Assembly (NCBI RefSeq): GCF_007845675.1
Contig: NZ_VOBR01000035.1
Location: 1 to 64,000, forward strand
DNA from: Lentzea tibetensis
GTDB lineage: Bacteria; Actinomycetota; Actinomycetes; Mycobacteriales; Pseudonocardiaceae
Reading direction: 5' to 3'
DNA length: 64,000 nt
Part shown: positions 7,893-38,117 of the stretch, piece by piece
Layout: each line of letters begins with the position of its first letter
Position numbering within the stretch: position 1 is the first letter of the stretch
Translations under genes and position numbers: made by a program
The notes under the pieces: generated by a model
Databases searched by the model: none
What the model saw: only the letters and a program-made list of their open reading frames with translations
Told to the model about the DNA's origin: nothing

Positions 7893-8633
7893 CTAGTCGC
7901 TGGTGCGGCGGCGGTACAGCCAGGTGGCGAGCGTGAAGGACGCGAGCAGCAGCCCGGACGCCCACACCAGCGCGACCCACCCCGTCGACCCGATCGGCGT
8001 TCCGGTCAGCAGGCCGCGCACGGTCTCGATGACCGGCGTGATCGGCTGGTGCTCGCTCACCCCGCGCAGGAACGCGGGCATCGTGTGGGTCGGCACGAAC
8101 GCGCTGCTCAGGTATGGCAGGAACAGCATGAAGAAGCTCAGCACGCTCGCCGACTCGACGGACTTGGCGACCACACCCGCCGCGGCGCCCAGCCACGACA
8201 GCGCGAGCACGTAGAGCAGCAGCAACCCCATCGCCAGCACCCAGTCCGCGACCGATGCCGACGGGCGGAACCCCATCGCCACCGCGGCGACGACCACGAT
8301 CGCGGTGGCCAGCGCGTTGCGCGTGACGCTCGCGGCCACGTGACCGGTCAGCACGGCGAAACCGCGAATGGGCAACGACCTGAGCCGGTCGATCATGCCC
8401 TTGCGCATGTCGTCGGCGACCGCCATCGAGGTGGACGTGGCGCCGTATCCGGTGCACAGCACGATGGTGCCGGGCACCACGTAGTTGATGTACGCGGTCC
8501 CGGTGTTGATGGCGCCGCCGAACACGTACACGTACAGCGCCATCATCATGAGCGGCAACAGGATCGACATGAGCAGCGTGTCCGGGTTGCGGCGGGTCAG
8601 CCGGACGCTGCGCCCGATCAACGTGAGCGTCAT
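7893..8633 (-). CDS. ABC-2 type permease of a drug exporter (DrrB-like)
   Basis: A 246-residue membrane subunit with six hydrophobic segments in the ABC2_membrane arrangement (NPDTLLMSILLPLMMMALY near the N-terminus, then GATSTSMAVADDMRKGMIDR, the conserved cytoplasmic loop). The ATG at 8633 is inside the stop of the ATPase gene (ATGA), so the two are translationally coupled and should form one exporter. The DrrAB type exports hydrophobic drugs such as anthracyclines; this substrate is unknown. Regulation is likely through the TetR protein encoded divergently. Confidence 0.9.
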   Translation of the reverse strand: MTLTLIGRSVRLTRRNPDTLLMSILLPLMMMALYVYVFGGAINTGTAYINYVVPGTIVLCTGYGATSTSMAVADDMRKGMIDRLRSLPIRGFAVLTGHVAASVTRNALATAIVVVAAVAMGFRPSASVADWVLAMGLLLLYVLALSWLGAAAGVVAKSVESASVLSFFMLFLPYLSSAFVPTHTMPAFLRGVSEHQPITPVIETVRGLLTGTPIGSTGWVALVWASGLLLASFTLATWLYRRRTSD

Positions 8634-9547
8634 GCCGCGACCCCCGCCGTGAGCGCGATGAACACGTCGTCGAGCGTCGGCCGGTGCGACGACACCCTGA
8701 GCACGGCGATATCGTTCTGCCGCAACGAGTCCAGCACGTGGTGCAGGTGCGCGGCGCTGCCGTCCGACGCGATGCCGAGCACCAGCCGCTCGGCGAACAC
8801 GTGCCCGCCGACGCACGCCGCGGCGCGTTCCACGGCGGACCGGTCGTCGAAGTGGAGATCGAGCCGGTCACCACCGACCTGCGACTTGAGCGCGTCGGTC
8901 GTGCCGTCCGCCACGACCTTCCCCTTGGACAGCAGCACGATCCGGTCGGCCAGCCGATCGGCCTCCTCGAGGTACTGCGTGGTGAGGAAGATCGTCGTGC
9001 CGGTGCGGACGAGGTCCGCGATGGCGTCCCACATCGTCGTGCGGCTGACCGGATCGAGCCCGCTCGTCGGCTCGTCGAGGAAGATCACCCTCGGGCCGGC
9101 GACGAGACTCATCGCGAGGTCGAGTCTGCGCCGCATGCCACCCGAGTACGTCTTCACCCTGCGGTCGGCCGCATCGACCAGGTCGAACCGCTCCAGCAGC
9201 TCATCGGCACGCCTGCGCGCGGCGGGCCGGGCGAGCCGCATGAGCCGCGCGACCATCACCAGGTTCTCCCGGCCGGTCTGCTCGTCGTCGACCGCCGCGT
9301 ACTGGCCGGTCAGGCTGATCACGCCGCGCACCTTCGCGGGCTCGCGCCGCACGTCGAACCCGCCGACCCGCACCTCGCCGGACGTGGCACGCGACAACGT
9401 GCTCAGTATCCGGATCGTCGTGGTCTTCCCGGCCCCGTTCGGCCCCAGCAACCCGAAGACCGACCCCTCGGCGACCTTCAGGTCGACCCCGTCCAGCACC
9501 ACGGCCGACCCGTAGGTCTTCCGCAGTCCCTCCACCTCGACAATCAC
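8630..9547 (-). CDS. ABC transporter ATP-binding protein (DrrA-like)
   Basis: A 305-residue ATPase. Visible motifs: Walker A (GPNGAGKTTT, about residue 37), Q-loop (TGQYAAVDD), ABC signature (YSGGMRRRLDLA), Walker B with catalytic Glu (VIFLDEPTSGLDP) and switch His replaced by Gln (LTTQYLEEAD), which is normal in the DrrA subfamily. The C-terminal 90 residues are the extra domain found in daunorubicin-resistance ATPases. GTG start with AAGGGGG upstream. The promoter region holds two TetR-type operators, so drug-inducible expression is inferred. Confidence 0.92.
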   Translation of the reverse strand: MIVEVEGLRKTYGSAVVLDGVDLKVAEGSVFGLLGPNGAGKTTTIRILSTLSRATSGEVRVGGFDVRREPAKVRGVISLTGQYAAVDDEQTGRENLVMVARLMRLARPAARRRADELLERFDLVDAADRRVKTYSGGMRRRLDLAMSLVAGPRVIFLDEPTSGLDPVSRTTMWDAIADLVRTGTTIFLTTQYLEEADRLADRIVLLSKGKVVADGTTDALKSQVGGDRLDLHFDDRSAVERAAACVGGHVFAERLVLGIASDGSAAHLHHVLDSLRQNDIAVLRVSSHRPTLDDVFIALTAGVAA

Positions 9548-9562
9548 CCGAAACCCCCTTTA

Positions 9563-9600
9563 TGCGTATGACATACGCACGATAGCGTAGGTGATACGCA
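9563..9600. promoter_or_regulatory. Tandem TetR-type operators between drrAB-like genes and tetR
   Basis: Operator 1 is a perfect 17-bp palindrome, TGCGTATGaCATACGCA (9563-9579). Operator 2 (9584-9600, AGCGTAGGTGATACGCA) has the same half-sites GCGTA/TACGC with a degenerate centre. The two start 21 bp apart, two helical turns. Outer halves also make an 11-bp inverted repeat (9559-9569 with 9594-9604). The site is 16 bp from the ABC start and 30 bp from the tetR start, so one protein could repress both. Confidence 0.8.
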
Positions 9601-9630
9601 TAAAAGCGGCAAGGGCCTAGACTGATCGTC

Positions 9631-10371
9631 ATGACCGAGCTGCCCCCGGAGATCACGCTGCTCTGGGGTGTGCGTGAGACACCGCGCCGAGGTCGCAAGC
9701 CTTCGCTCACGGCCGCTGACATCACCCGCGCCGCGATCGCCGTTGCGGACGCCGAGGGGCTCGCGGCCGTGTCGATGGCGCGTGTCGCGGCCGAGCTCGG
9801 CAACGCGACGATGGCCCTCTACCGGCACGTGAAGAGCAAGGACGAGCTGCTCGCGCTGATGACGGACGGTGCACTGGACCCACCGCCCGTCCTGCCGGGC
9901 GGCGACTGGCGGATCGGGCTGACCACGTGGTCGGAGGCGATCATGGCCTCGTTCCAGAAGCACCCCTGGTACGCGCAGGTCACGATCAGCGGCCCGCCGA
10001 TCGGCCCGAACAACCTGGCGTGGTTCGACCGCGGGCTCAGCGCACTGGAGGACACGCCGCTGGAGGAGGGCGAGAAGGTCGGCATCGTGATGGGCCTGAT
10101 CACCTACCTGCACGGCGAGCTGCGGCTGAGCTTCGAGCTGGCCGAGGGGTACCGGGAGAACCCGGAGGCGTTCAGCCGCGTGTACGCCGCGGCGCTGCGC
10201 CGGTTCGTCGACCCGCGCGAGATGCCGGCGCTGGCGAAGGTCGTCGACGCGGGCGTGTTCGACTACGACACGCTCTACGACGAGCAGGACCTGGGGGCCG
10301 ACTTCAACTTCGGCCTGAACCTCTACCTGGACGGCATCGCCGCGTACCTGGACCGTCGCAGCAGCACGTAA
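9631..10371 (+). CDS. TetR-family transcriptional regulator
   Basis: A 246-residue regulator. The helix-turn-helix lies at about residues 30-75 (ITRAAIAVADAEGLAAVSMA, then RHVKSKDELLALM). The C-terminal ligand domain (LTTWSEAIMASFQKHPWYAQ) is of the TetR_C type common next to ABC or MFS drug exporters. It is divergent from the DrrAB-like exporter with two palindromic operators in between, so local repression relieved by a drug ligand is the natural reading. Its 3' end overlaps the 3' end of the convergent MFS gene by 49 bp. Confidence 0.92.
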   Translation: MTELPPEITLLWGVRETPRRGRKPSLTAADITRAAIAVADAEGLAAVSMARVAAELGNATMALYRHVKSKDELLALMTDGALDPPPVLPGGDWRIGLTTWSEAIMASFQKHPWYAQVTISGPPIGPNNLAWFDRGLSALEDTPLEEGEKVGIVMGLITYLHGELRLSFELAEGYRENPEAFSRVYAAALRRFVDPREMPALAKVVDAGVFDYDTLYDEQDLGADFNFGLNLYLDGIAAYLDRRSST

Positions 10372-11642
10372 CCGCCGACCAGCAGCAACGGCACCGCGCA
10401 CACGACCGCGACCACGCGGAAGCCGTCGGCGAACCCGGCCATGGTCAACGCGCCCATCAGGCTGCCGAGCAGTGCGACGCCGAGTCCCGCGCCGAGTTCG
10501 TACGACACGGACTCGACGGCGGCCGCCGATCCGGCGCGTTCCGGCGGCGCGCCGCTCATGATCGCGTCGGAGGCCGCCGTCTGCACCATGCCGTAGCCGC
10601 CGCCGATGAGCACCAGGCAGACGGACATCACCACGTGGTCCGCCGACGCCGCCAGCCCCGCGTAACCCACGGCGGCGGCACCGAGGCCGAGCGGAACGGC
10701 GAAGCGCAGGCCGAGCGCACCACCGCACAACGCGGCGAAGAAGGCGGCCAGCGGCATCGGCAGCAGGAACACCGCCGCCTCCCACGGCGACATGCCCAGC
10801 GCGAGCTGGAGGTGTTGTCCCAGCAGGAGTTCGAACCCCACGACCACCAGCACCGGCACGACGACCGTCGTCACGCCCGCGCGCAGCAGCGGTGAGCGGA
10901 ACAGCGTGAGGTCGAGCATCGGGTGCTCGGCACGGAGTTGCCTGCGCACGAACAGGAACAGGCAGCCGGCGCCGAGAATCGCGGGCAGGACAACGGTTCC
11001 GCCGTGCGCGAGGTCCTTGACCGTGTAGATCACCCCGATGACACCGGCGACCACGAGCAGCGGTGACGCGGGCTCCCACGGTTCCGGGGCGGCAGCGGGT
11101 TCGTTGACCAGCACCAGCGCAGCCGCGGCGAGTGCGACCACCACGAACGGCACGCTGACCAGGAACACCGAGCCCCACCAGAAGTGTTCGAGCAGCAGGC
11201 CGCCCACGACCGGCCCGAGTGCGGCGCCGCCCGCGTTCACCGCGCTCCACACGCCGATCGCGAACCCGCGTTCCCGGTCGCCGGGGTAGATCTGCCTGAT
11301 GATCGCGAGCGTCGCCGGGATGATCATCGACGCGGCCACGGCGAGCAGCGCGCGTCCCGCGATCAGCAGAGCCGGGCTGGACGCGAAGGCGCAGCACACC
11401 GACGCCAGCCCGAAGATGACCAAACCGTTGAGCAGCAACCGCTTGTGGCCGATGCGGTCGCCGAACGGGCCGGTGACGAGCACCATGCTGACCATCAGCA
11501 GCGAGTAGATGTCCGCGATCCACAGGACTTCGCGCGGCGACGCGCCGAGCTGCCGGATCAGCGACGGCACGGCGAGCGTGAGGATCGTCAGGTCCAGCGC
11601 GGTCGGCAGGAGGCAGGCCGCCACCACGGCGAGGCGGGTCAC
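10323..11642 (-). CDS. MFS transporter, DHA2 (EmrB/QacA) type
   Basis: A 439-residue permease with about 12-14 hydrophobic segments. Motif A-like loop (GPFGDRIGHKRLLL) and the family's LDLTILTLAVPSL first helix are present, as is the motif C-like GPVVGGLLL. GTG start at 11642 lies in the stop of the creatininase-family gene (GTGA), so it is the last gene of a four-gene coupled operon. DHA2 proteins are usually drug/proton antiporters. In this operon it may export or take up the compound handled by the enzymes, an inference from position only. Confidence 0.88.
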   Translation of the reverse strand: MTRLAVVAACLLPTALDLTILTLAVPSLIRQLGASPREVLWIADIYSLLMVSMVLVTGPFGDRIGHKRLLLNGLVIFGLASVCCAFASSPALLIAGRALLAVAASMIIPATLAIIRQIYPGDRERGFAIGVWSAVNAGGAALGPVVGGLLLEHFWWGSVFLVSVPFVVVALAAAALVLVNEPAAAPEPWEPASPLLVVAGVIGVIYTVKDLAHGGTVVLPAILGAGCLFLFVRRQLRAEHPMLDLTLFRSPLLRAGVTTVVVPVLVVVGFELLLGQHLQLALGMSPWEAAVFLLPMPLAAFFAALCGGALGLRFAVPLGLGAAAVGYAGLAASADHVVMSVCLVLIGGGYGMVQTAASDAIMSGAPPERAGSAAAVESVSYELGAGLGVALLGSLMGALTMAGFADGFRVVAVVCAVPLLLVGGYVLLRRSRYAAMPSR

Positions 11643-12370
11643 CGCATGCCGTACCCGGACTCGATCAGGTCGACGGCGTTGTCGACCACGTGGTGGAAGA
11701 GCCGCTTGCCCAGCTCGGCCGACGCACCGGACGTCCTGGACAGCACGCCGTCCGTCGACATGCGCTTCGCGTCCAGCGGGTGCACGTAGATCCCGGCGCG
11801 CGGCGGCGTCTCGTGATCGGGTCGCGCTGGCCGCACGACCTCGGGGCGCAGGTGCATCATCAGGCTCGTCTCGGTGACGCCCGCGTGTTCGGCGTGCCAG
11901 CCGGGGAAGCCGGGCACGTGCTCGGCGACCCAGTCGTCGTCGACCAGGCTCCACCAGCTGAAGGCGAGAATCTCGCTGTCGCCGCGGCACTCGTCGAGCG
12001 CTTCGAACACGAACGCCTCGTTCTCGTAGTGACCGTTGATCACGACCAACCTACCGAGCTGAAGTGGTTCCAGCGAGCGCAACGCGTCAGTCAAGTAGTT
12101 GATGAAGGTCGTGCCGCGCAGGTGCACCGTGCCGGGGAAGTGCAGCCCGCCACCGCTCTGCGGCAACGACCGCGCCGAGACCGGCTGCCCCGGCAGCACG
12201 TAACCATCCACTCGGGACGCGACCTCGTGTGCGAGTGCGACCGGGATGTCGTAGTCGATGGACAGCGGCAGGTGCGGCCCGTGCTGCTCCAGCCCGCCGA
12301 TGGGCCAGATCAGCGTGGCGCCGCGCATCGCGTCGACGACCTCGGAGCTGGTCAGGTCGCCGTAGTTCAC
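11639..12370 (-). CDS. Creatininase-family amidohydrolase
   Basis: A 243-residue enzyme with the metal-binding signatures of the creatininase fold: WPIGGLEQHGPHLPLSIDYD (Glu, His, Asp ligands), VVINGHYENEA (His, Glu) and AEHAGVTETSL. Family members hydrolyse cyclic or linear amides: creatinine, the formamide ArfB substrate, and the mycofactocin precursor (MftE). GTG start inside the stop of the DHOD-like gene; stop overlapping the MFS start. None of the mycofactocin partners is here, so MftE is unlikely. In this operon a ring-opening amide hydrolysis after base reduction is plausible (inference). Confidence 0.88.
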   Translation of the reverse strand: MNYGDLTSSEVVDAMRGATLIWPIGGLEQHGPHLPLSIDYDIPVALAHEVASRVDGYVLPGQPVSARSLPQSGGGLHFPGTVHLRGTTFINYLTDALRSLEPLQLGRLVVINGHYENEAFVFEALDECRGDSEILAFSWWSLVDDDWVAEHVPGFPGWHAEHAGVTETSLMMHLRPEVVRPARPDHETPPRAGIYVHPLDAKRMSTDGVLSRTSGASAELGKRLFHHVVDNAVDLIESGYGMR

Positions 12371-13265
12371 CGCAGGCTCCGTCCTCGCACGTCCGCCACG
12401 GTCAGATGCCGGGCGCGCAGCCACGCCTCCACTCCGTCGCGGATGGACTTGAGCGTCTCGTGCATGTCCTTGTGCAGCGCGGTGTACACCTGCACGGCGT
12501 GCGCGCCGACGCTGAGGTACTCGACGACGTCGGACGCCTCCTGCACGCCGCCGCTGCCCAGCACCGGGATCGCGATCCCCTGCCGCCGCAACGCGAAGAT
12601 CTCCGCGAGCACCAGCGGCTTGATGCCGGCACCGGAGTACGCGCCTGCCAGCCGCACCTCGCCGCTGCTCGGGTCGACCGCGATGCCGGAGATGGTGTCG
12701 CTCAAGGTGATCGCGTCCGCGCCCGCGTCGATCGCCGCTCTGACGCGCGCCGGTGCGCCTTCGCCGAGCGCGAGCTTGACGCTGAACGGCACGGTCACCC
12801 GCTCGCGGACGGCTTTCGCGTACGCGGCAACGCGGTGCGGGGTTTCGGCCAGTTCCTCGGACTCGTTGATGCACGAGATCCGAGCTCCAGCGCGGGGCTG
12901 CCGGCGGCGACCACGCGTTCGGCCAGCTCCGCGAGCTCACGCGGTGAGTCCGCGTGCAGGTTCGCGATTACCGGCAGCTTCTCGTCGGCGAACCGGCTGA
13001 TCACGTCGCACCACTCGGTCACGCTCTTGCGCGAGTACGTGGTGCTGTTGAGCATGCCGGTGGGCAGCCGGACGATCCGCTCGTCACCGCCGGGCGGCGG
13101 GTTCGGGTGGATGGTCTTGGTGATCACCGCGCCCCCGCCGCCGTCGAGCAGCCTGCGGATGTTGCGCTCCTGGTCGGTGAGCAGTCCGGAGCCGACGACC
13201 ACCGGTGAGGACAGCTCCATGCCCAGCACGGTCGCGCGGGCGGGGTTCTCGACGATCGCGGTCAT
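12367..13265 (-). pseudogene. Dihydroorotate dehydrogenase-like FMN protein, interrupted by a single-base frameshift
   Basis: One protein of about 299 residues is encoded in two frames. The first part (13265 to about 12880) has PVVVGSGLLTDQERN, AVITKTIHPNPPPGG, NSTTYS and PVIANLHADSP. The second (about 12880 to 12367) has PFSVKLALGEG, GADAITLSDT and GSGGVQEASDVVEYL. These are the FMN-barrel motifs of class 1 dihydroorotate/PreA-type dehydrogenases. Re-adding one base near 12879 (minus strand GGATC to GGAATC) joins them as LELGISCINESEELAE, restoring the ISC active-site cysteine and GC-rich third positions. As written, the first frame stops at 12795 and overlaps a GTG at 12798 (GTGA), so two half-proteins could still be made. 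Gene is coupled on both sides by 4-bp overlaps. Either a real lesion or a sequence error. Confidence 0.85.
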
Positions 13266-13774
13266 CGGGCGACCTCCAGCGCGCCGGACTCGAGCAGGGC
13301 GAGCAGATGGGCGCGGTCGCGCCGGATGCGCGTGATGTCGAAGAACGACACCCTTGCCGCGGAACGAAGTCCGCGCAGCAGATGGCTCGCGTGCTCGCTG
13401 ACCGGCGCACTCGTGACGACCACGATCGGCTTGTCCAGCGCCGACGCCCAGCCGAGCTCGACGTGCGTGCCGTCGGTGCGCAGCAGCTCGCCGCTCTCGT
13501 CGACCGGCAGGACGGGCACGAACACGTCGCAGCGCCGCATCCAGCTGAAGTCCCTGACGGCGACCTGGTCCGGCGTGAACCGCGCGGTGTCGGCGCCGAA
13601 CCGCTCGGCCTCGTGCGCGGAGAAGACGGTGCCGTTCGCGATTCGGACGGCCTCGATCACGTCGCTGATCGCGTCGCGCAGCGGGTCGTGGAAGCCGGTG
13701 CCCTGGATGGCGTGCTGGATCGGGCCGCCGACGAAGACGTTCAGACCGGACAGGTCGGGGATGGGGTTCGCCAC
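13262..13774 (-). CDS. Nucleoside 2-deoxyribosyltransferase-like protein
   Basis: A 170-residue protein of the nucleoside 2-deoxyribosyltransferase/DUF4406 fold: LNVFVGGPIQHAI at the N-terminus (phosphate/sugar-binding loop), RRCDVFVPVL (Asp), and DGTHVELGWASAL, where the Glu matches the family's nucleophile position. Known members transfer or hydrolyse N-glycosidic bonds of nucleosides. The GTG start at 13774 has a strong GAGGAG site 7 bases upstream. First gene of the coupled operon (stop overlaps the next ATG). Divergent from mtnA with 165 bp between. The exact substrate is unknown. Confidence 0.75.
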   Translation of the reverse strand: MANPIPDLSGLNVFVGGPIQHAIQGTGFHDPLRDAISDVIEAVRIANGTVFSAHEAERFGADTARFTPDQVAVRDFSWMRRCDVFVPVLPVDESGELLRTDGTHVELGWASALDKPIVVVTSAPVSEHASHLLRGLRSAARVSFFDITRIRRDRAHLLALLESGALEVAR

Positions 13775-13939
13775 TCGATGCTCCTCGTACACCCTCCGCA
13801 CCGTTGCGGAGCGCGATTCGATCGTGGCAGTCGGTGACGGACGTCGAACACCCCTACTGTCGGTGACTCTCCTCACCGGGGCGATCACTGAGGGTCAGCA
13901 CCAGACGTACTGCTGCTGCGCGAGCTGTAGAAAGAGTCC

Positions 13940-14881
13940 ATGCGGACGATCGACTGGGTGGACGGACGGATCATCGCGATCGAGCAGACGCTGCTGCCCG
14001 GCGAGCTGAAGGTCGTGGAGATCGACGACGTCGACCAGCTCGTCGACGCGATCCAGCGGCTCGCCGTCCGCGGCGCGCCCGCGCTGGGCGTCGCGGGTGC
14101 GCTGGGCGTGGCGCTGTCCGCGCACAAAGGTGGTGACGTTCGCGCGGACGCGGCCCGGTTGCGCGCCGCCCGGCCCACCGCGGTGAACCTCGCCTGGGGC
14201 GTCGACCGCGTGCTGGCGCTGCTGCCGCAGGGCGTCGACGCGATGACCGCCGAGGCCGTGCACGTGCTGGAGGACGACATCCGCCGCAACCGCGTGCTCG
14301 GGTTCCGCGGCGCCTCGTGGCTCGCGGAGCGACTGGGCCGCAAGGTCAACGTGCAGACGCACTGCAACGCGGGCGCACTGGCCTGCGTCGAGTGGGGCAC
14401 CGCGCTGGGTGTGGTGCGGGCGCTGCACGAAACCGGTTCGCTGGGCCACGTGTACGTCGACGAGACGCGCCCGCTGCTGCAGGGCGCCCGGCTGACGGCG
14501 TGGGAGCTGGCGCGAATGGGCGTCGAGCACACCGTCGTGGTCGACTCGGCCGGCCCGACCGTGATCGCCCGCGGACTGGCCGACGCGGTCGTCGTAGGTG
14601 CGGACCGGATCGCCGCGAACGGCGACGTCGTCAACAAGATCGGCACCTACCCGCTCGCGCTGGCCGCCGCGCGCGCCGGAATCCCGTTCGTGGTCGCCGC
14701 CCCGGAGTCGACGGTCGACCTGGCCACCGCGTCGGGCGCGGACGTCCACATCGAGATCCGCGACCCCGCCGAGGTCGGTGTGCCCAACGCCCTCAACTAC
14801 GCCTTCGACGTCACCCCTGCGGACCTGGTGACCGCGATCATCACCGACGAACGGGTCTTCCATGGAAAACCGCTGGGCTGA
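13940..14881 (+). CDS. mtnA: MtnA-type S-methyl-5-thioribose-1-phosphate isomerase (or related aldose-1-phosphate isomerase)
   Basis: A 313-residue isomerase of the MtnA/eIF2B-alpha family. Motifs: VRGAPALGVAGALG, NVQTHCNAGALACV (catalytic Cys), YVDETRPLLQGARL, and GADRIAANGDVVNKIGTYPL (catalytic Asp). Family enzymes turn 5-substituted ribose-1-phosphates into ribulose-1-phosphates (methionine salvage, 5-deoxyribose disposal) or ribose-1,5-bisphosphate into ribulose bisphosphate. It is the first gene of a two-gene operon: the aldolase ATG lies 20 bp inside its 3' end. No other methionine-salvage genes (mtnB, C, D, K, P) are nearby, so a DHAP-shunt-like role with the aldolase is favoured. Confidence 0.88.
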   Translation: MRTIDWVDGRIIAIEQTLLPGELKVVEIDDVDQLVDAIQRLAVRGAPALGVAGALGVALSAHKGGDVRADAARLRAARPTAVNLAWGVDRVLALLPQGVDAMTAEAVHVLEDDIRRNRVLGFRGASWLAERLGRKVNVQTHCNAGALACVEWGTALGVVRALHETGSLGHVYVDETRPLLQGARLTAWELARMGVEHTVVVDSAGPTVIARGLADAVVVGADRIAANGDVVNKIGTYPLALAAARAGIPFVVAAPESTVDLATASGADVHIEIRDPAEVGVPNALNYAFDVTPADLVTAIITDERVFHGKPLG

Positions 14882-16778
14882 AACGATTTCTGACCCGCTC
14901 GACGAATGCGTGTACGGCTCCCGCCTGCTCGGCCGCGAACCGGACCTGGTGCTGCACGGCGGCGGCAACACGTCCGTCAAGGTGACCGTCCGGGACGTCA
15001 CCGGCTCACCGGTGGACGTGTTGTACGTCAAGGGAAGCGGCTGGGACCTGTCGTCGATCGAGCGCGCCGGGTTCGCGCCGCTGCGGCTCGAGCGGTTGCG
15101 CGAGCTGCTGACCGTCCCGTCGCTGCCGGACAGCGGAATGATGAACGAGCTGCGCTGCGCACTGCTCGATGCCAGCGCACCCGACCCGAGCGTCGAGACG
15201 CTGCTGCACGCCGTGCTGCCGCACCGGGCGGTGCTGCACAGCCACGCCGACGCCGTGATCACGTTGACCAACCTCGAGAAGCCCCGTGTCGAGGAGGTCT
15301 TCGGCGGCCGCGTCGTCGTGATCCCCTACGTGATGCCGGGCTTCAAGCTCGCCCAGCTGTGCGCGGAGCTGTTCCCCCGGTACGTCACGTACAACACCAT
15401 CGGCATGGTGCTGATGAACCACGGCCTGTTCACGTTCGGCGCCACCACCCAAGAGGCCTACAACCGGCACGTCGAACTGGTCAGCCTGGCCGAAGCGCAC
15501 CTGTCCAGGCTCGATTTCCCCGCTGCGGCAACACCTCCTGTCGCTCCTGTCGTGCTGGCCGGCCTGCGCAAGCAGATCTCGGACGTCGCCGGTTCACCGA
15601 TGATCGTCAGCAGGCACACCGACCGCGCGTCGATGGCCTTCGTCGCCCGCCCGGACGTCACTTCCGTTGCCGCGGAAGGACCGGCGACCCCGGACCACGT
15701 GATCCGCACCAAGCGCGTCCCGCTGATCGGCAGGGACGTCTCCGGCTACGCCGACGACTACCGCCGCTACTTCGCCGACCACGCCCGCCCAGGCCTGACG
15801 ATGCTCGACCCGGCACCGCGCGTCGTGCTCGACCCCGAGCTCGGCGTGCTGACCGCCGGCAGGCGCGCCAAGGACGCCGACATCGCGTTCGACATCTACG
15901 CCCACACGATCGGCATCATCACGCGGGCCGACGCACTCGGCGGCTACCGCGCACTGCCGGCGAGCGACCTGTTCGACATGGAGTACTGGGAACTCGAACA
16001 GGCCAAGCTCCGGCTCGCCGGCGCACCGGCCGAGTTCACCGGCGAAGTCGCACTGGTCACCGGCGCGGCATCCGGCATCGGCCGCGCGTGCGCGGACGCG
16101 TTGCGCGCACGCGGCGCGAGCGTCATCGGCCTAGACCTGACGCCGACCGACAGCACACCGGACTACCTCGGCCTCCAGGTCGACGTCACCGACTCACAAG
16201 CCGTCGCGGACGCCCTTTCCGTTGGCGTGGAACGTTTCGGCGGCATCGACATGATCGTGGCATCGGCGGGCGTGTTCCCCGGCAACACCCCGATCGCGTC
16301 GCTGGACGCCTCCGCGTGGCACCACACGATGTCCGTCAACGCCTCGTCGATCGCAACCCTGTTCGCTCAGGTCCACCCCCTTTTGAAGCTGTCACCGCGC
16401 GGCGGCCGTGTCGTGGTCGTCGCGTCGAAGAACGTGCCCGCACCGGGTCCGGGCGCGGCCGCCTATTCGGCGTCGAAGGCAGCCGTCACCCAACTGGCCC
16501 GCGTCGCCGCACTGGAGTGGGCCGCCGACAACATCCGCGTCAACACCGTCCACCCGGACGCCGTGTTCGACACCGGCCTGTGGACCCCCGAGGTGCTCGC
16601 CCAGCGCGCCGAGCACTACGGCCTGACCGTCGCCGAGTACAAGCGACGCAACCTGCTGGGCACCGAGGTCACCAGCGCCGCCGTCGGCGAGCTCGTCGCG
16701 ACCCTCTGCTCGGACACCTTCGCGTGCACCACCGGCGCCCAGGTCCCGATCGACGGCGGCAACGAACGGGTGATCTAG
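14862..16778 (+). CDS. Bifunctional class II aldolase / short-chain dehydrogenase
   Basis: A 638-residue fusion. The N-terminal class II aldolase/adducin domain (about 1-230) has LVLHGGGNTSVKV (phosphate loop), VLHSHADAVI (HxH zinc ligands) and LMNHGLFTFG (third His). The C-terminal SDR domain (about 388-638) has VALVTGAASGIGRA (NAD loop) and AAYSASKAAV (Tyr-Lys pair). This matches the rhamnulose-1-phosphate aldolase/alcohol dehydrogenase type: a ketose-1-phosphate is split to DHAP plus an aldehyde, which the SDR half then oxidises or reduces. With the MtnA-type isomerase upstream, a 5-deoxy- or 5-substituted ribulose-1-phosphate is an equally likely substrate. Its TAG shares a CTAG with the stop of the convergent trehalose synthase gene. 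Confidence 0.88.
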   Translation: MENRWAETISDPLDECVYGSRLLGREPDLVLHGGGNTSVKVTVRDVTGSPVDVLYVKGSGWDLSSIERAGFAPLRLERLRELLTVPSLPDSGMMNELRCALLDASAPDPSVETLLHAVLPHRAVLHSHADAVITLTNLEKPRVEEVFGGRVVVIPYVMPGFKLAQLCAELFPRYVTYNTIGMVLMNHGLFTFGATTQEAYNRHVELVSLAEAHLSRLDFPAAATPPVAPVVLAGLRKQISDVAGSPMIVSRHTDRASMAFVARPDVTSVAAEGPATPDHVIRTKRVPLIGRDVSGYADDYRRYFADHARPGLTMLDPAPRVVLDPELGVLTAGRRAKDADIAFDIYAHTIGIITRADALGGYRALPASDLFDMEYWELEQAKLRLAGAPAEFTGEVALVTGAASGIGRACADALRARGASVIGLDLTPTDSTPDYLGLQVDVTDSQAVADALSVGVERFGGIDMIVASAGVFPGNTPIASLDASAWHHTMSVNASSIATLFAQVHPLLKLSPRGGRVVVVASKNVPAPGPGAAAYSASKAAVTQLARVAALEWAADNIRVNTVHPDAVFDTGLWTPEVLAQRAEHYGLTVAEYKRRNLLGTEVTSAAVGELVATLCSDTFACTTGAQVPIDGGNERVI

Positions 16779-30387: not shown

Positions 30388-32376
30388 TTAACCGGATGAA
30401 CGGCCGGGAAACTCGGTCTCGATGAGTCGTAGCACGGCTGTCGCCTTGACGGCTGTCTCCTCGAATTCCTCTGCCTGGTCCGACAGCGCTACGACAGCTC
30501 CGCCGACACCGAAACTCACCTTGTCGCGGTCGGCTACGAGCGTCCGGATCACGATGCTGAAGTCGGCTGTTCCACTCAGCGAGAAGTATCCGAGTGCGCC
30601 GGAGTAGACGCCCCGCGGACCGGCTTCCAAGCCATCGAGAATCTGCATCGTGCGGACCTTCGGCGCGCCAGTCATCGAACCTCCGGGGAACGCGGCCCGC
30701 ACACATCGGACGGCGGAACTGTCCGGTCGCAAGCGGGCGCGCACGGTGCTCACGAGCTGATGAACCGTCGCATAGGTCTCGACGTCGAAAATCCTCGGGA
30801 CCTCGACCGAACCGACGACCGCGCACGTGCCGAGGTCGTTGCGGACCAGGTCCACGATCATCAGGTTCTCGGCGCGGTCCTTCACCGACGAAGCGAGTGA
30901 TTCACGCAGCCGCTCGTCCTCTGAAACAGTCGCCCCGCGCGGACGTGTGCCCTTGATCGGCGACGACTCCACGACACCGTCTCGCGAGACCCGCAAAAAG
31001 CGCTCCGGCGAGGTGCTCAGCACCGACAACGGACCGAACCTGAGCAACGCGCCGAACGGAGCCGGGTTCTCGGCGCGCAAAACGCGGTAGGTCTCCCACG
31101 GGTCGAGCCGGCCGCGCCACGACAGCATGTTCGTCAGGCAGACCTCGTAGGTCTCCCCCGCGGTGATCGCTTCCATGCACGCGTCGATCAGCTTCGTGTA
31201 GTGCGCGCGGCCGTGCCGCAGCTGCACCTCGAAAGGACCGGCCGGACGCACCGGCTCACCCAGTGGCACCGTTTCCAGTGCGGAAGAAAGCCACGGGTCG
31301 CCGTCGGTCAACGACATCAAATAGACGCACCGGTCGAGATGGTCGAACACGACCGCTCGGTCCGCGAACACCATGTGCGCGTCCGGCTGCTCGGAACGGT
31401 GCGTCAGCTCGCCGCCGCATTCGGCCTTCAACTCGTAGCCGAGGTAGCCGACCCAGCCGAGCGCGAAGTCGAACGGCACGTCCGGCTGGGCGACGCGGTG
31501 GGCGGCCACGTCGGCGTCCAGCCATTCGAAGAACGACGGACAGGACGTGGACAGACCGTCGACCGTCAGCGCGCCCTCCCACACGTCGTATGACGCCACA
31601 CGCGCCTGTGGGCCGCTGGCGTCACCCATGAAGGAGAACCGGCCGTCGCGGCCGCTGTCGAGCCAGAACGCCGTCTCAGAAGCCCCGTACAGCGCCGCGA
31701 ACAAAGCCTCGGGATCCGGATGCTCGTCAATTCGCCGCACGTGCACCTGGCGGGTCGCGGGCGCTCGCGCGAAGACAGGCTCAGGCGTCACGCCGCGCGC
31801 ACCGGGCGTCAGTCGCGCGAAGTTCGCCAGCAGCTCTCGCCCGTGCGACGTGCAGATCGACTCGGGGTGGAACTGGACGCCCCACGCGGGCCGCGAACGG
31901 TGCCGCACGGCCATCAGCACGTCGTCGTCCGTGCTCCAGGCGATCGGTTCCAGCTCGTCGGGGAGATCCGTGACCGCCAGCGAGTGGTAGCGCACCACGG
32001 ACAACGGCGACGGCAGGCCTTCGAAGAGGTCGACGCCGGTGTGCCGCACGGACGACACGAGCCCGTGCCGCGGCGCGGGCGCGGGACCGACGGTCGCACC
32101 GGCCAGCAGGCACAGTCCTTGATGTCCGAGGCACACCCCGAGCAGCGGGATGTCGGCGTGCTCGACGACCGCGCGGCAGATGCCGAAGTCGGCGCGGTTC
32201 TGCGGACGGCCGGGGCCCGGTGAGATCACCACGTTGTCGAACCGCCGCAACGAGGACAGCCGCCAGCGCGGGTCGTCGTTGCGGACGACCACGGGCTCGG
32301 CGCCGTTCACCTCGGCCAGGTGCTGGAAGAGGTTGAACGTGAACGAGTCGTAGTTGTCGATCAGCAGAGTGCGCAT
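30388..32376 (-). CDS. pabAB: Fused aminodeoxychorismate synthase (PabA-PabB)
   Basis: A 662-residue fusion. The glutamine amidotransferase half (1-190) starts MRTLLIDNYDSFTFNL and has LLGVCLGHQG (nucleophile Cys) and WGVQFHPESI (His, Glu). The chorismate-binding half (about 240-662) has SSPIKGTRPRGATVSEDER, AAFPGGSMTGAPKVRTM and GPRGVYSGALGYFS. The product 4-amino-4-deoxychorismate feeds p-aminobenzoate and folate, or p-aminobenzoate-primed antibiotics. The PIKGT lysine and the GSMTGAPK box mark PabB rather than TrpE. Fused forms are known in streptomycetes (candicidin PabAB). No pabC or antibiotic genes are adjacent, so the role may be either. Confidence 0.93.
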   Translation of the reverse strand: MRTLLIDNYDSFTFNLFQHLAEVNGAEPVVVRNDDPRWRLSSLRRFDNVVISPGPGRPQNRADFGICRAVVEHADIPLLGVCLGHQGLCLLAGATVGPAPAPRHGLVSSVRHTGVDLFEGLPSPLSVVRYHSLAVTDLPDELEPIAWSTDDDVLMAVRHRSRPAWGVQFHPESICTSHGRELLANFARLTPGARGVTPEPVFARAPATRQVHVRRIDEHPDPEALFAALYGASETAFWLDSGRDGRFSFMGDASGPQARVASYDVWEGALTVDGLSTSCPSFFEWLDADVAAHRVAQPDVPFDFALGWVGYLGYELKAECGGELTHRSEQPDAHMVFADRAVVFDHLDRCVYLMSLTDGDPWLSSALETVPLGEPVRPAGPFEVQLRHGRAHYTKLIDACMEAITAGETYEVCLTNMLSWRGRLDPWETYRVLRAENPAPFGALLRFGPLSVLSTSPERFLRVSRDGVVESSPIKGTRPRGATVSEDERLRESLASSVKDRAENLMIVDLVRNDLGTCAVVGSVEVPRIFDVETYATVHQLVSTVRARLRPDSSAVRCVRAAFPGGSMTGAPKVRTMQILDGLEAGPRGVYSGALGYFSLSGTADFSIVIRTLVADRDKVSFGVGGAVVALSDQAEEFEETAVKATAVLRLIETEFPGRSSG

Positions 32377-32402
32377 TGCGAACGGCACTTTACCTGCAGA
32401 AA

Positions 32403-32432
32403 GAGGGTGGCCGCGGCAATGCGACCACCCTC
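32403..32432 (-). terminator. Terminator of the sigma/anti-sigma operon
   Basis: GAGGGTGG (32403-32410) and CCACCCTC (32425-32432) form a perfect 8-bp stem located 15 bp past the stop of the anti-sigma-like gene and upstream of pabAB. Confidence 0.7.
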
Positions 32433-32446
32433 TCACCCCGCCAGGA

Positions 32447-36950: not shown

Positions 36951-38117
36951 ATGGCCGAGAGCTTCGCCGTTGACCGGCGTGCAGAGACCGAGGCTCGTAT
37001 TCGGCGTTTCCTGGATCGGGAAAAACCTCAGACCCCGTGTCTGGTCATCGATCTGCAGACCGTGCGGGAGCGTTACGAGGACATCACCACCGCGTTGCCG
37101 CTGGTCGACGTCTTCTACGCGGTGAAGTCCAACCCCGCGCCCGAAGTCGTGGAACTGCTGGCCGCGCAGGGTTCCAGCTTCGACGTGGCCTCGCCCGCGG
37201 AGATCGACCTGTGCCTCGCCCGCGGCGCGAAACCCGAGACCATCTCGTACAGCAACCCCATCAAGAAGGCCGCGGACGTCGCGTACGCCTATTCGCGGGG
37301 TGTGCGGCTCTTCGTGTCCGACAGCGAACAGGACGTGCGAACGGTCGCCGCGCACGCACCCGGTTCGTCCGTGCTGCTGCGGATTCTCGTGCACAGCAAG
37401 GGATCCACGTATCCGTTCGGCCGCAAGTTCGGTTGCGATCCCGAGATGGCGGCGGACCTCTTGCGGCTGGCGCACGAGTTGGGGCTCGATCCTTGCGGTG
37501 TCGCGTTCCACGCGGGCTCGCAACAGCTGGACGTGCACGCCTGGGACGGCGGCATCGCGGACGCAGCGGTGATCGCCGCCAAGCTGCGGGCCGACGGCAT
37601 CGAGATCTCGACGGTCAACCTGGGTGGCGGGCTTCCCGCCGTGTACCAGGAGGCCACGCCGTCGTTGACCGAGTTCGCCCAGGGCATCGAGGGTTCCCTG
37701 CGGCGCCACTTCGGTGACGCACGGCCCCGCGTGATGATCGAGCCCGGCCGGGCGATCTCCGCCGAGGCGGGCATGATCCGGTCCGAGGTCGTGCTCGTGT
37801 CGCGGAAGTCCTATTCGGACGAACGCCGCTGGGTGTACATCGACATCGGCCGCTACCAGGGTCTCGCGGAGACCGAGGGCGAGGCCATCGCGTACGCGCT
37901 GCGCACCTCGCGTGACGGCGGACCGGTCGGCCCCGTCGTGCTCGCCGGCCCGACGTGCGACGCCGACGACGTGATCTACCAGCACACCAGGTACGACCTG
38001 CCGCTGGAGCTCGAGGCGGGAGACCACGTGGACATCCTCCACGCGGGTGCTTACACCGCCTCCTACTCGTCCGTGTGCTTCAACGGCTTCCCGCCGTTGG
38101 CCACGTACTGCATCTGA
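36951..38117 (+). CDS. PLP-dependent ornithine/diaminopimelate-type decarboxylase (probable ornithine decarboxylase)
   Basis: A 388-residue fold-III PLP enzyme: VFYAVKSNPAPEVV (Lys holding PLP), SFDVASPAEID, VAFHAGSQQ, NLGGGLPA (phosphate loop), MIEPGRAISAEAG and GPTCDADDV (cysteine contributed across the dimer). The short length and the GPTCD motif are those of eukaryote-like ornithine decarboxylases rather than LysA, which has a conserved GxxCES. It should give putrescine in the cytosol. First gene of an operon with speD and speE, which supports ornithine as the substrate. Confidence 0.85.
   Translation: MAESFAVDRRAETEARIRRFLDREKPQTPCLVIDLQTVRERYEDITTALPLVDVFYAVKSNPAPEVVELLAAQGSSFDVASPAEIDLCLARGAKPETISYSNPIKKAADVAYAYSRGVRLFVSDSEQDVRTVAAHAPGSSVLLRILVHSKGSTYPFGRKFGCDPEMAADLLRLAHELGLDPCGVAFHAGSQQLDVHAWDGGIADAAVIAAKLRADGIEISTVNLGGGLPAVYQEATPSLTEFAQGIEGSLRRHFGDARPRVMIEPGRAISAEAGMIRSEVVLVSRKSYSDERRWVYIDIGRYQGLAETEGEAIAYALRTSRDGGPVGPVVLAGPTCDADDVIYQHTRYDLPLELEAGDHVDILHAGAYTASYSSVCFNGFPPLATYCI

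Follow-up and report, generated by a model that had tools for sequence, protein, structure and literature searches.

We analyzed 64,000 nucleotides of DNA from Lentzea tibetensis (hereafter the window), in which a minus-strand operon and a plus-strand gene pair diverge from a shared intergenic region. The minus operon carries three genes, called the trio here, for an N-glycosidase (NDT), a dihydroorotate dehydrogenase (DHOD)-like flavoprotein, and a creatininase-like enzyme (CRN), as well as a gene for a transporter of the major facilitator superfamily (MFS); the plus pair encodes an MtnA-family isomerase and a class II aldolase fused to a short-chain dehydrogenase/reductase (SDR). From the comparative evidence, we consider it probable that the minus operon is a cassette for the formation of 3-aminopropionamidine (3-APA) with an exporter, in a copy that is probably incomplete, and that the plus pair is an unrelated module for the salvage of a 5-deoxy sugar. 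Below, L-numbers denote compared loci, G-numbers genomes, and C-numbers contigs of the window's own genome, a draft assembly of 9.36 Mb across 105 contigs.

The two operons are not conserved together

The first-pass annotation read the two operons as one catabolic pathway for a modified nucleoside, the minus operon acting on the base and the plus operon on the sugar. Their divergent arrangement, 165 bp apart in the window, and enzyme classes that fit a single scheme speak for such a link, but the distribution of the genes does not bear it out. For the plus pair, we combined the best 80 of 462 aldolase/SDR loci from a scan of genome contigs with 3 stretches taken directly (83 loci in total) and judged the presence or absence of neighbors within the stretch of DNA around each locus. 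MtnA was found near the aldolase/SDR gene in 24 of the 83 loci, and NDT, CRN, and DHOD in none. A close copy of the aldolase/SDR gene is present in 4 of 150 relatives, the window's own genome included. All 10 close actinobacterial loci, which derive from 7 genomes (with L005/L014, L006/L013, and L008/L009 as same-genome pairs), contain the MtnA–aldolase/SDR pair, and none contains the trio. The gene order in a sister Lentzea genome (PIG-L, LysE, one further gene, MtnA, and aldolase/SDR, without the minus operon) indicates that the part of the window running from the ABC transporter genes beyond the operon through NDT was either inserted or substituted with respect to the sister; no match to these ABC genes or to the adjacent TetR gene was found around the pair in that genome.

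NDT relatives are spread sporadically. They occur in 9 of 299 relatives (the window's own genome, 5 at 56% to 70% identity, and 3 distant ones at 34% to 43%), in 3 of 397 genomes of the order (the own genome and 2 previously found), in 4 of 394 genomes of the class (the own genome and 3 of one other genus), and in 10 of 392 genomes of that other genus (2 previously found). We read 17 trio loci, 16 of them actinobacterial and 1 on an Agrobacterium plasmid, excluding the locus on a second Agrobacterium plasmid (L157). DHOD and CRN adjoin NDT in 17 of 17 orthologue loci, which gave no match to MtnA or the aldolase within the DNA around each, and the 3 loci with distant NDT homologues gave no match to DHOD or CRN. 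A further objection is chemical: judged by family, a glycosidase of the BlsM/MilB type would release ribose 5-phosphate, whereas MtnA uses a 1-phosphate. We conclude that the two operons are most likely two unrelated modules lying side by side, and that a joint pathway for base and sugar is highly improbable.

Among the loci with the plus pair, that of Saccharothrix luteola appears on two scaffolds (L008 and L009) with equal identities and positions, reflecting either duplication or assembly redundancy. The contig of L011 is labeled Rhodococcus rhodnii NRRL B-16535; its neighborhood looks Kibdelosporangium-like by eye, and the label may be wrong.

The trio matches the gene families of 3-aminopropionamidine formation

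Compared by family, the trio has the same make-up as the presumed 3-APA genes of congocidine/netropsin, distamycin, and anthelvencin, and in both cases the genes are adjacent and co-directional. For congocidine, the genes are cgc4, cgc5, and cgc6, which we assign to the trio's three families and to the conversion of a cytosine nucleotide into 3-APA. The best PDB matches of NDT in profile searches are BlsM (5vto; 1.8e-18), a cytidine monophosphate (CMP) N-glycosidase (4jen), and MilB (4jem), and a GTH[VI]ELGW stretch is present in 6 of 6 aligned NDT rows. By sequence, two CMP N-glycosidases, BlsM and MilB, stand nearest to NDT, and its first-pass label of deoxyribosyltransferase-like, correct as to family, can be replaced by this more specific one. 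The N-glycosidase family is common to NDT, MilB of the mildiomycin pathway, and BlsM of the blasticidin pathway; in excerpts of PMC11784345, MilB is described as hydrolyzing CMP or hydroxymethyl-CMP. NDT differs from MilB in having Gln after GGPI, where MilB has GGPFR, and in its neighboring genes. CRN carries EQHGPH and GHYEN motifs and has creatininase 1q3k as its best PDB match, with a score against TIGR04448 (197.8 bits) under the cut-off of 235 for the creatininase equivalog. In the DHOD-like family, all 8 of the 8 orthologues aligned (the window copy lies outside the alignment) keep the Cys and Asn of a GI[SA]CxN stretch in the substrate loop, and the orthologues match PreA as well, at scores below those for PyrD (92 vs 150 bits in L129).

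These families suggest the following route. NDT would split CMP, releasing cytosine along with ribose 5-phosphate; the cytosine would be reduced to 5,6-dihydrocytosine by the DHOD-like flavoprotein; and CRN would hydrolyze the ring at C2, loss of CO2 then yielding 3-APA (H2N-CH2-CH2-C(=NH)NH2). In relatives, 3-APA would be coupled to an acid, either by a stand-alone condensation (C) domain or by an ATP-grasp-like protein, and the product would leave the cell through an MFS protein. The reactions that the first-pass annotation attributed to the minus operon (cleavage of an N-glycosidic bond, reduction of a pyrimidine-like ring, and ring opening) agree with the families found, and the base half of its idea is chemically apt, pointing to amidine biosynthesis in a cluster that looks broken here. 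Its statement that it knew of no described pathway with this gene set is not supported for the minus trio, which would correspond to the cgc4–6 set and is seen inside clusters with pyrrolamide-type genes.

The trio occurs with several kinds of partner

Sorted by partner, the 17 trio loci comprise 7 with an NtaA-type flavin mononucleotide monooxygenase (L132, L133, L146, L147, L159, L160, and L162), 5 with an ATP-grasp-like protein (L129, L130, L156, L164, and L165), 4 with a C-domain-like protein (L131, L145, L161, and L163), and 1 cut short (L158, which ends at the contig edge yet holds the protein that marks the C-domain type). In 4 of the 5 ATP-grasp-like loci, an MFS protein is 55% to 65% identical to that of the window.

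Of the C-domain-like loci, L145, L161, and L163 were scanned for pyrrolamide-type gene families. Between them, L145 and L161 hold Condensation, AMP-binding, NTP-transferase, DegT aminotransferase, UDP-sugar dehydrogenase, epimerase, glycosyltransferase, aldehyde dehydrogenase, and Amidohydro_2 genes, and L163 holds a C domain, an aldehyde dehydrogenase, a UDP-sugar dehydrogenase, and a nucleotidyltransferase. Pyrrolamide clusters have such a gene make-up, their pyrrole being derived from N-acetylglucosamine. A marker protein from L145 is present in its source genome (G830) and in G1022 and G1004. According to excerpts of PMC4047045, 3-APA is a common precursor of pyrrolamides, and stand-alone C domains have been proposed to add it.

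Two of the monooxygenase loci show a different equipment. In L132 (9594–17751), the trio is followed by the NtaA-type monooxygenase, a stand-alone C domain, a dihydroxybenzoate/salicylate-adenosine monophosphate (AMP) ligase, and a salicylate synthase with a peptidyl carrier protein (PCP) domain, and L133 (9629–17688) contains homologues of the C domain, the AMP ligase, and the salicylate synthase with PCP; both are possible salicyl-amidine clusters.

In L129 (5158–10503) and L130 (5050–10648), an ectoine-synthase homologue lies directly beside NDT, together with the rest of the trio, the ATP-grasp-like protein, and an MFS transporter. Both genomes encode a second ectoine synthase elsewhere that scores higher (about 195 vs 140 bits) and is about 42% identical to the trio-linked protein, which marks the latter as a separate copy. 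Ectoine synthase cyclizes glutamine to a 5-iminoproline-type product, and noformycin is the 5-iminoproline amide of 3-APA. From this chemistry and structure, the L129/L130 gene set would make a noformycin-like amidine, and it is a candidate gene set for such a product; among amidines of the noformycin/amidinomycin type, it fits the amide of 5-iminoproline and 3-APA. A literature search for the names noformycin and amidinomycin returned only matches unrelated by title.

The Agrobacterium tumefaciens plasmids pAtCFBP6626b and pAtA74a_b (L156:8192–16001 and L157), typed as conjugative, carry the trio with an ATP-grasp-like homologue, a 2-oxoglutarate–Fe(II) oxygenase, a LysA-like decarboxylase, and a MATE transporter. 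The cluster adjoins LuxR and acyl-homoserine-lactone synthase genes (so named in L157) and is quorum-sensing-linked.

The partners also bear on whether the trio could serve reductive pyrimidine catabolism, for example from uridine monophosphate via uracil and dihydrouracil to carbamoyl-beta-alanine, as a source of nitrogen or beta-alanine. The match of the DHOD-like orthologues to PreA, albeit below PyrD, the ability of creatininase-family enzymes to open cyclic amides, and the lack of an acylating enzyme beside the trio in the window would suit such a role. However, a partner of the ATP-grasp-like, NtaA-type, or C-domain-like kind accompanies the trio at 16 of the 17 loci, the remaining one ending at a contig edge; NDT is sporadic among relatives (9 of 299, counting the own genome and the 3 distant homologues); and NDT is nearest to CMP enzymes. 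We therefore regard a catabolic role as unlikely and prefer 3-APA formation.

The trio may be a portable module leading from CMP to 3-APA that has entered at least 4 kinds of cluster and not pyrrolamides alone, a reading about as likely as not. The window would then represent one of these clusters that has lost its ligase, in a genome that retains an ectoine-synthase homologue of this kind elsewhere. The 4 kinds would be ectoine synthase with an ATP-grasp-like protein and MFS transporter; an ATP-grasp-like protein without the ectoine gene; the NtaA-type monooxygenase, twice with salicylate activation; and the Agrobacterium plasmid set. With its three adjacent genes, the trio offers a simple genome-mining hook for amidines other than pyrrolamides, and it supplies noformycin with a gene set that can be tested. 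This broader reuse of the trio merits follow-up, and the noformycin-like set in 2 relatives is the best lead.

The window copy of the trio is probably incomplete

In the window, the three families are adjacent and co-directional, but not all three genes are intact. The DHOD-like gene is broken near position 12,880: the 5′ part can be read up to about 12882, and the 3′ part, starting at about 12879, continues in a different frame. The first-pass annotation, right about the order and families of the minus-operon genes, did not notice this split. The 3′ part is 69% identical to the orthologue in L129 (8588–9502), which is open from end to end, and all 8 aligned orthologues are open. The G+C content at third codon positions is still high in both parts (0.945 and 0.924) and gene-like on either side of the break, which points to either a recent event or an error in the sequence. 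We considered and rejected a programmed frameshift, as inspection of the junction by eye, the sole check made, revealed no slippery heptamer.

The MFS transporter of the window falls in a clade with those of 4 ATP-grasp-type loci (support 0.999). The window differs from the pyrrolamide clusters in that the trio is flanked by neither pyrrole genes nor a C domain or ligase, the DHOD-like gene is frameshifted, and the transporter is of the ATP-grasp-cluster type; compared with the noformycin-type set, it is without the ectoine-synthase homologue and the ATP-grasp-like gene, neither of which was found in the window. Queries with C and A (adenylation) domains gave only chance matches there, so that the window does not qualify as a pyrrolamide cluster, and the L145 marker had no match in the own genome. 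Given the frameshift and the failure to find the ATP-grasp-like gene, this copy would probably form no finished product, and, judged by gene content, the minus operon is probably an incomplete or decaying cluster.

The plus pair resembles a 5-deoxyribose-salvage module

The window MtnA has 1t9k as its best PDB match and carries HCNAG at 141 and GADRI at 220, which we take to be the catalytic Cys and Asp motifs of an MtnA-type isomerase. The linked aldolase/SDR protein carries HSH (126–128) and HG (187), presumably the metal-ligand motifs of a class II aldolase, along with TGAASGIG and YSASK. An isomerase with these motifs linked to such an aldolase is what is expected of the dihydroxyacetone phosphate (DHAP) shunt, and the earlier comparison of the pair with this shunt gains from 6 of the 83 aldolase/SDR loci, in which MtnP, APRT, MtnA, and aldolase/SDR follow one another in this order on one strand. 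These 6 loci belong to metagenome-assembled genomes of Gallionella, Gallionellaceae, Ferrigenium, and Thiobacillus, and the families in one of them (L031) were confirmed by NCBIfam. The DHAP-shunt and 5-deoxyribose-salvage sets described in excerpts of PMC10986504 and PMC6079011 combine MtnP or MtnK with MtnA and Ald2. Like these systems (MtnN plus MtnK or MtnP, then MtnA and Ald2; DrdKIA), the window has MtnA beside a class II aldolase; it differs in that the aldolase is fused to an SDR and in that neither MtnK nor an MtnP over the cut-off was found in the own genome, so that neither MtnP nor MtnN plus MtnK was recognized as the supply of the 1-phosphate. The fused architecture is shared with RhaEW, a rhamnulose-1-phosphate aldolase/lactaldehyde dehydrogenase; excerpts of PMC3870299 report this fusion of a DHAP aldolase and an NAD-dependent aldehyde dehydrogenase as tested and yielding lactate and DHAP. 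Unlike RhaEW, the window protein falls in another NCBIfam equivalog (NF006196) and is linked to MtnA.

The pair could alternatively be a unit of methionine salvage or of L-rhamnose catabolism, with its partner genes elsewhere. MtnA does score over the cut-off for the methionine-salvage isomerase, and the aldolase/SDR has the RhaEW architecture. Partner genes are indeed found elsewhere: contig C55 of the own genome (L138) carries a methionine-salvage operon of mtnA, mtnC, mtnB, and a further gene. That operon has its own MtnA, however, and the window MtnA is not linked to mtnB or mtnC, which indicates that the window pair is a second, dedicated system. C55 is syntenic with a sister locus (L168), to which its MtnA and MtnB are 82% and 88% identical and whose MtnA and MtnB pass NF004326 and TIGR03328; MtnC of the own genome is over its cut-off. 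The further C55 gene, called mtnD by position only, had no NCBIfam match at E 1e-8. Regarding rhamnose, the aldolase/SDR scores 414.8 bits against TIGR02632 (RhaD_aldol-ADH), under the cut-off of 567.75, and no rhamnose gene was recognized beside the pair by eye, no search having been aimed at such genes. We rate either of these roles as quite improbable. In both Lentzea-type genomes, the methionine-salvage operon (L168:5291–9204 and C55) is headed by a DszC/SfnB-like flavoprotein.

From sequence comparison, the plus pair is predicted to be a module for the DHAP shunt or 5-deoxyribose salvage whose fused dehydrogenase is RhaEW-like. MtnA would turn 5-deoxyribose-1-phosphate, or 5-methylthioribose-1-phosphate, into its ribulose counterpart. 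Cleavage of the latter by the aldolase would give DHAP together with acetaldehyde or methylthioacetaldehyde, and this aldehyde would be oxidized or reduced by the fused SDR. The pair suggests that the aldolase of the DHAP shunt can occur as a fusion with a dehydrogenase, which would clear the reactive aldehyde immediately, and that isomerase and aldolase move together, leaving the phosphorylase or kinase behind.

Weighing the proposed functions

Several observations weigh against the functions proposed here. The DHOD-like orthologues have Gly in place of the first Asn of the dihydroorotate dehydrogenase motif, which makes the substrate of the flavoprotein uncertain. A literature search yielded no statement in support of the presumed role of cgc4–6 in 3-APA formation, and the L145 pyrrolamide marker was not found in 2 genomes with C-domain-type loci, G940 (L161) and G039 (L131). 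The ATP-grasp label is weak: PF02655 scores just over its cut-off in L129, L130, and L165, scores just under it in L164, and has no match in the Agrobacterium homologue (L156), which shares 43% to 45% identity with the L130 and L129 proteins. A tree of NDT and CRN does not tie the window specifically to the ATP-grasp loci, and the absence of the ATP-grasp-like gene from the own genome comes from one query over 105 contigs without a known positive. As for the plus pair, MtnK was found in 0 of 10 genomes (the control was positive in 2 of 14), and MTAP exceeded its cut-off in 1 of 10 (G050), the best own-genome match, at 79.3 bits, being a purine nucleoside phosphorylase on contig C24. The own genome also encodes a nucleosidase-like protein that scores below cut-offs; this protein with an unrecognized kinase, or the purine nucleoside phosphorylase, are candidates for the supply of the 1-phosphate.

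Two further points concern the state of the minus operon: the DHOD frameshift may be a sequencing error, and contig C23 of the own genome encodes an ectoine-synthase homologue, 55% to 57% identical to the trio-linked ones, near nonribosomal peptide synthetase (NRPS) genes, so that a trio partner may lie elsewhere in the genome. The C23 locus (L178, 34500–53500) includes TrpA-like, acyl-CoA-dehydrogenase-like, AMP-binding, C-A-PCP NRPS, transglutaminase-like, and UbiD-like genes. The operon might accordingly work, the MFS protein exporting free 3-APA or a conjugate made by a partner elsewhere, possibly that on C23. The gene-like codon-position G+C around the break, the open frames of the other operon genes, the draft state of the genome, and the C23 homologue beside NRPS genes are consistent with this alternative, whereas the lack of an own-genome match for the ATP-grasp-like protein or the pyrrolamide marker, and of any match at the C23 locus to the trio, the ATP-grasp-like and C-domain queries, or the MFS protein, argues against it. 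We consider a working operon somewhat unlikely, and an incomplete or decaying cluster the better account.

Organization of the locus

The six genes, their order, strands, and families, and the extent of the overlap and gap in the plus pair and between the operons are as first annotated (Table 1). At 3 of 3 junctions, neighboring minus-strand genes share 4 bp (ATGA or GTGA), and the start codon of the MFS gene was assigned from its GTGA junction. The MtnA and aldolase/SDR genes overlap by 20 bp (14862–14881).

Table 1. Genes and intergenic region of the divergent locus in the window.
Feature	Positions	Strand	Details
DHA2-type MFS transporter, probable exporter	10323..11642	-	439 aa from GTG in GTGA overlap; PF07690 164 bits
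CRN, creatininase-like amidohydrolase	11639..12370	-	243 aa; PF02633 183.1 bits
DHOD-like flavoprotein gene, two frames	12367..13265	-	5′ part PF01180 29.2 bits, cut-off 27
NDT, BlsM/MilB-like CMP N-glycosidase, first trio gene	13262..13774	-	170 aa; Pfam Nuc_deoxyrib_tr 34 bits, cut-off 28.8
Divergent intergenic region	13775..13939		165 bp
MtnA-family sugar-1-phosphate isomerase	13940..14881	+	313 aa; TIGR00512 341.7 bits, cut-off 279
Class II aldolase fused to SDR dehydrogenase	14862..16778	+	638 aa; NF006196 974.2 bits, cut-off 831

A regulatory site in the intergenic region was considered and rejected: its predicted folding is no better than that of shuffled sequences (z -0.17), and it contains a single imperfect palindrome of 13 nt (13833–13852).

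Elsewhere in the window, 2 open reading frames show no tie to the trio, namely a LysA-like one (36951–38117; 22% identical to the Agrobacterium LysA-like protein) and one with a stretch 28% identical to salicylate synthase (30388–32436). Next to the minus operon, at 7893–10371, lie a minus-strand ABC transporter pair and a divergent plus-strand TetR gene, the 3′ end of which overlaps that of the MFS gene.

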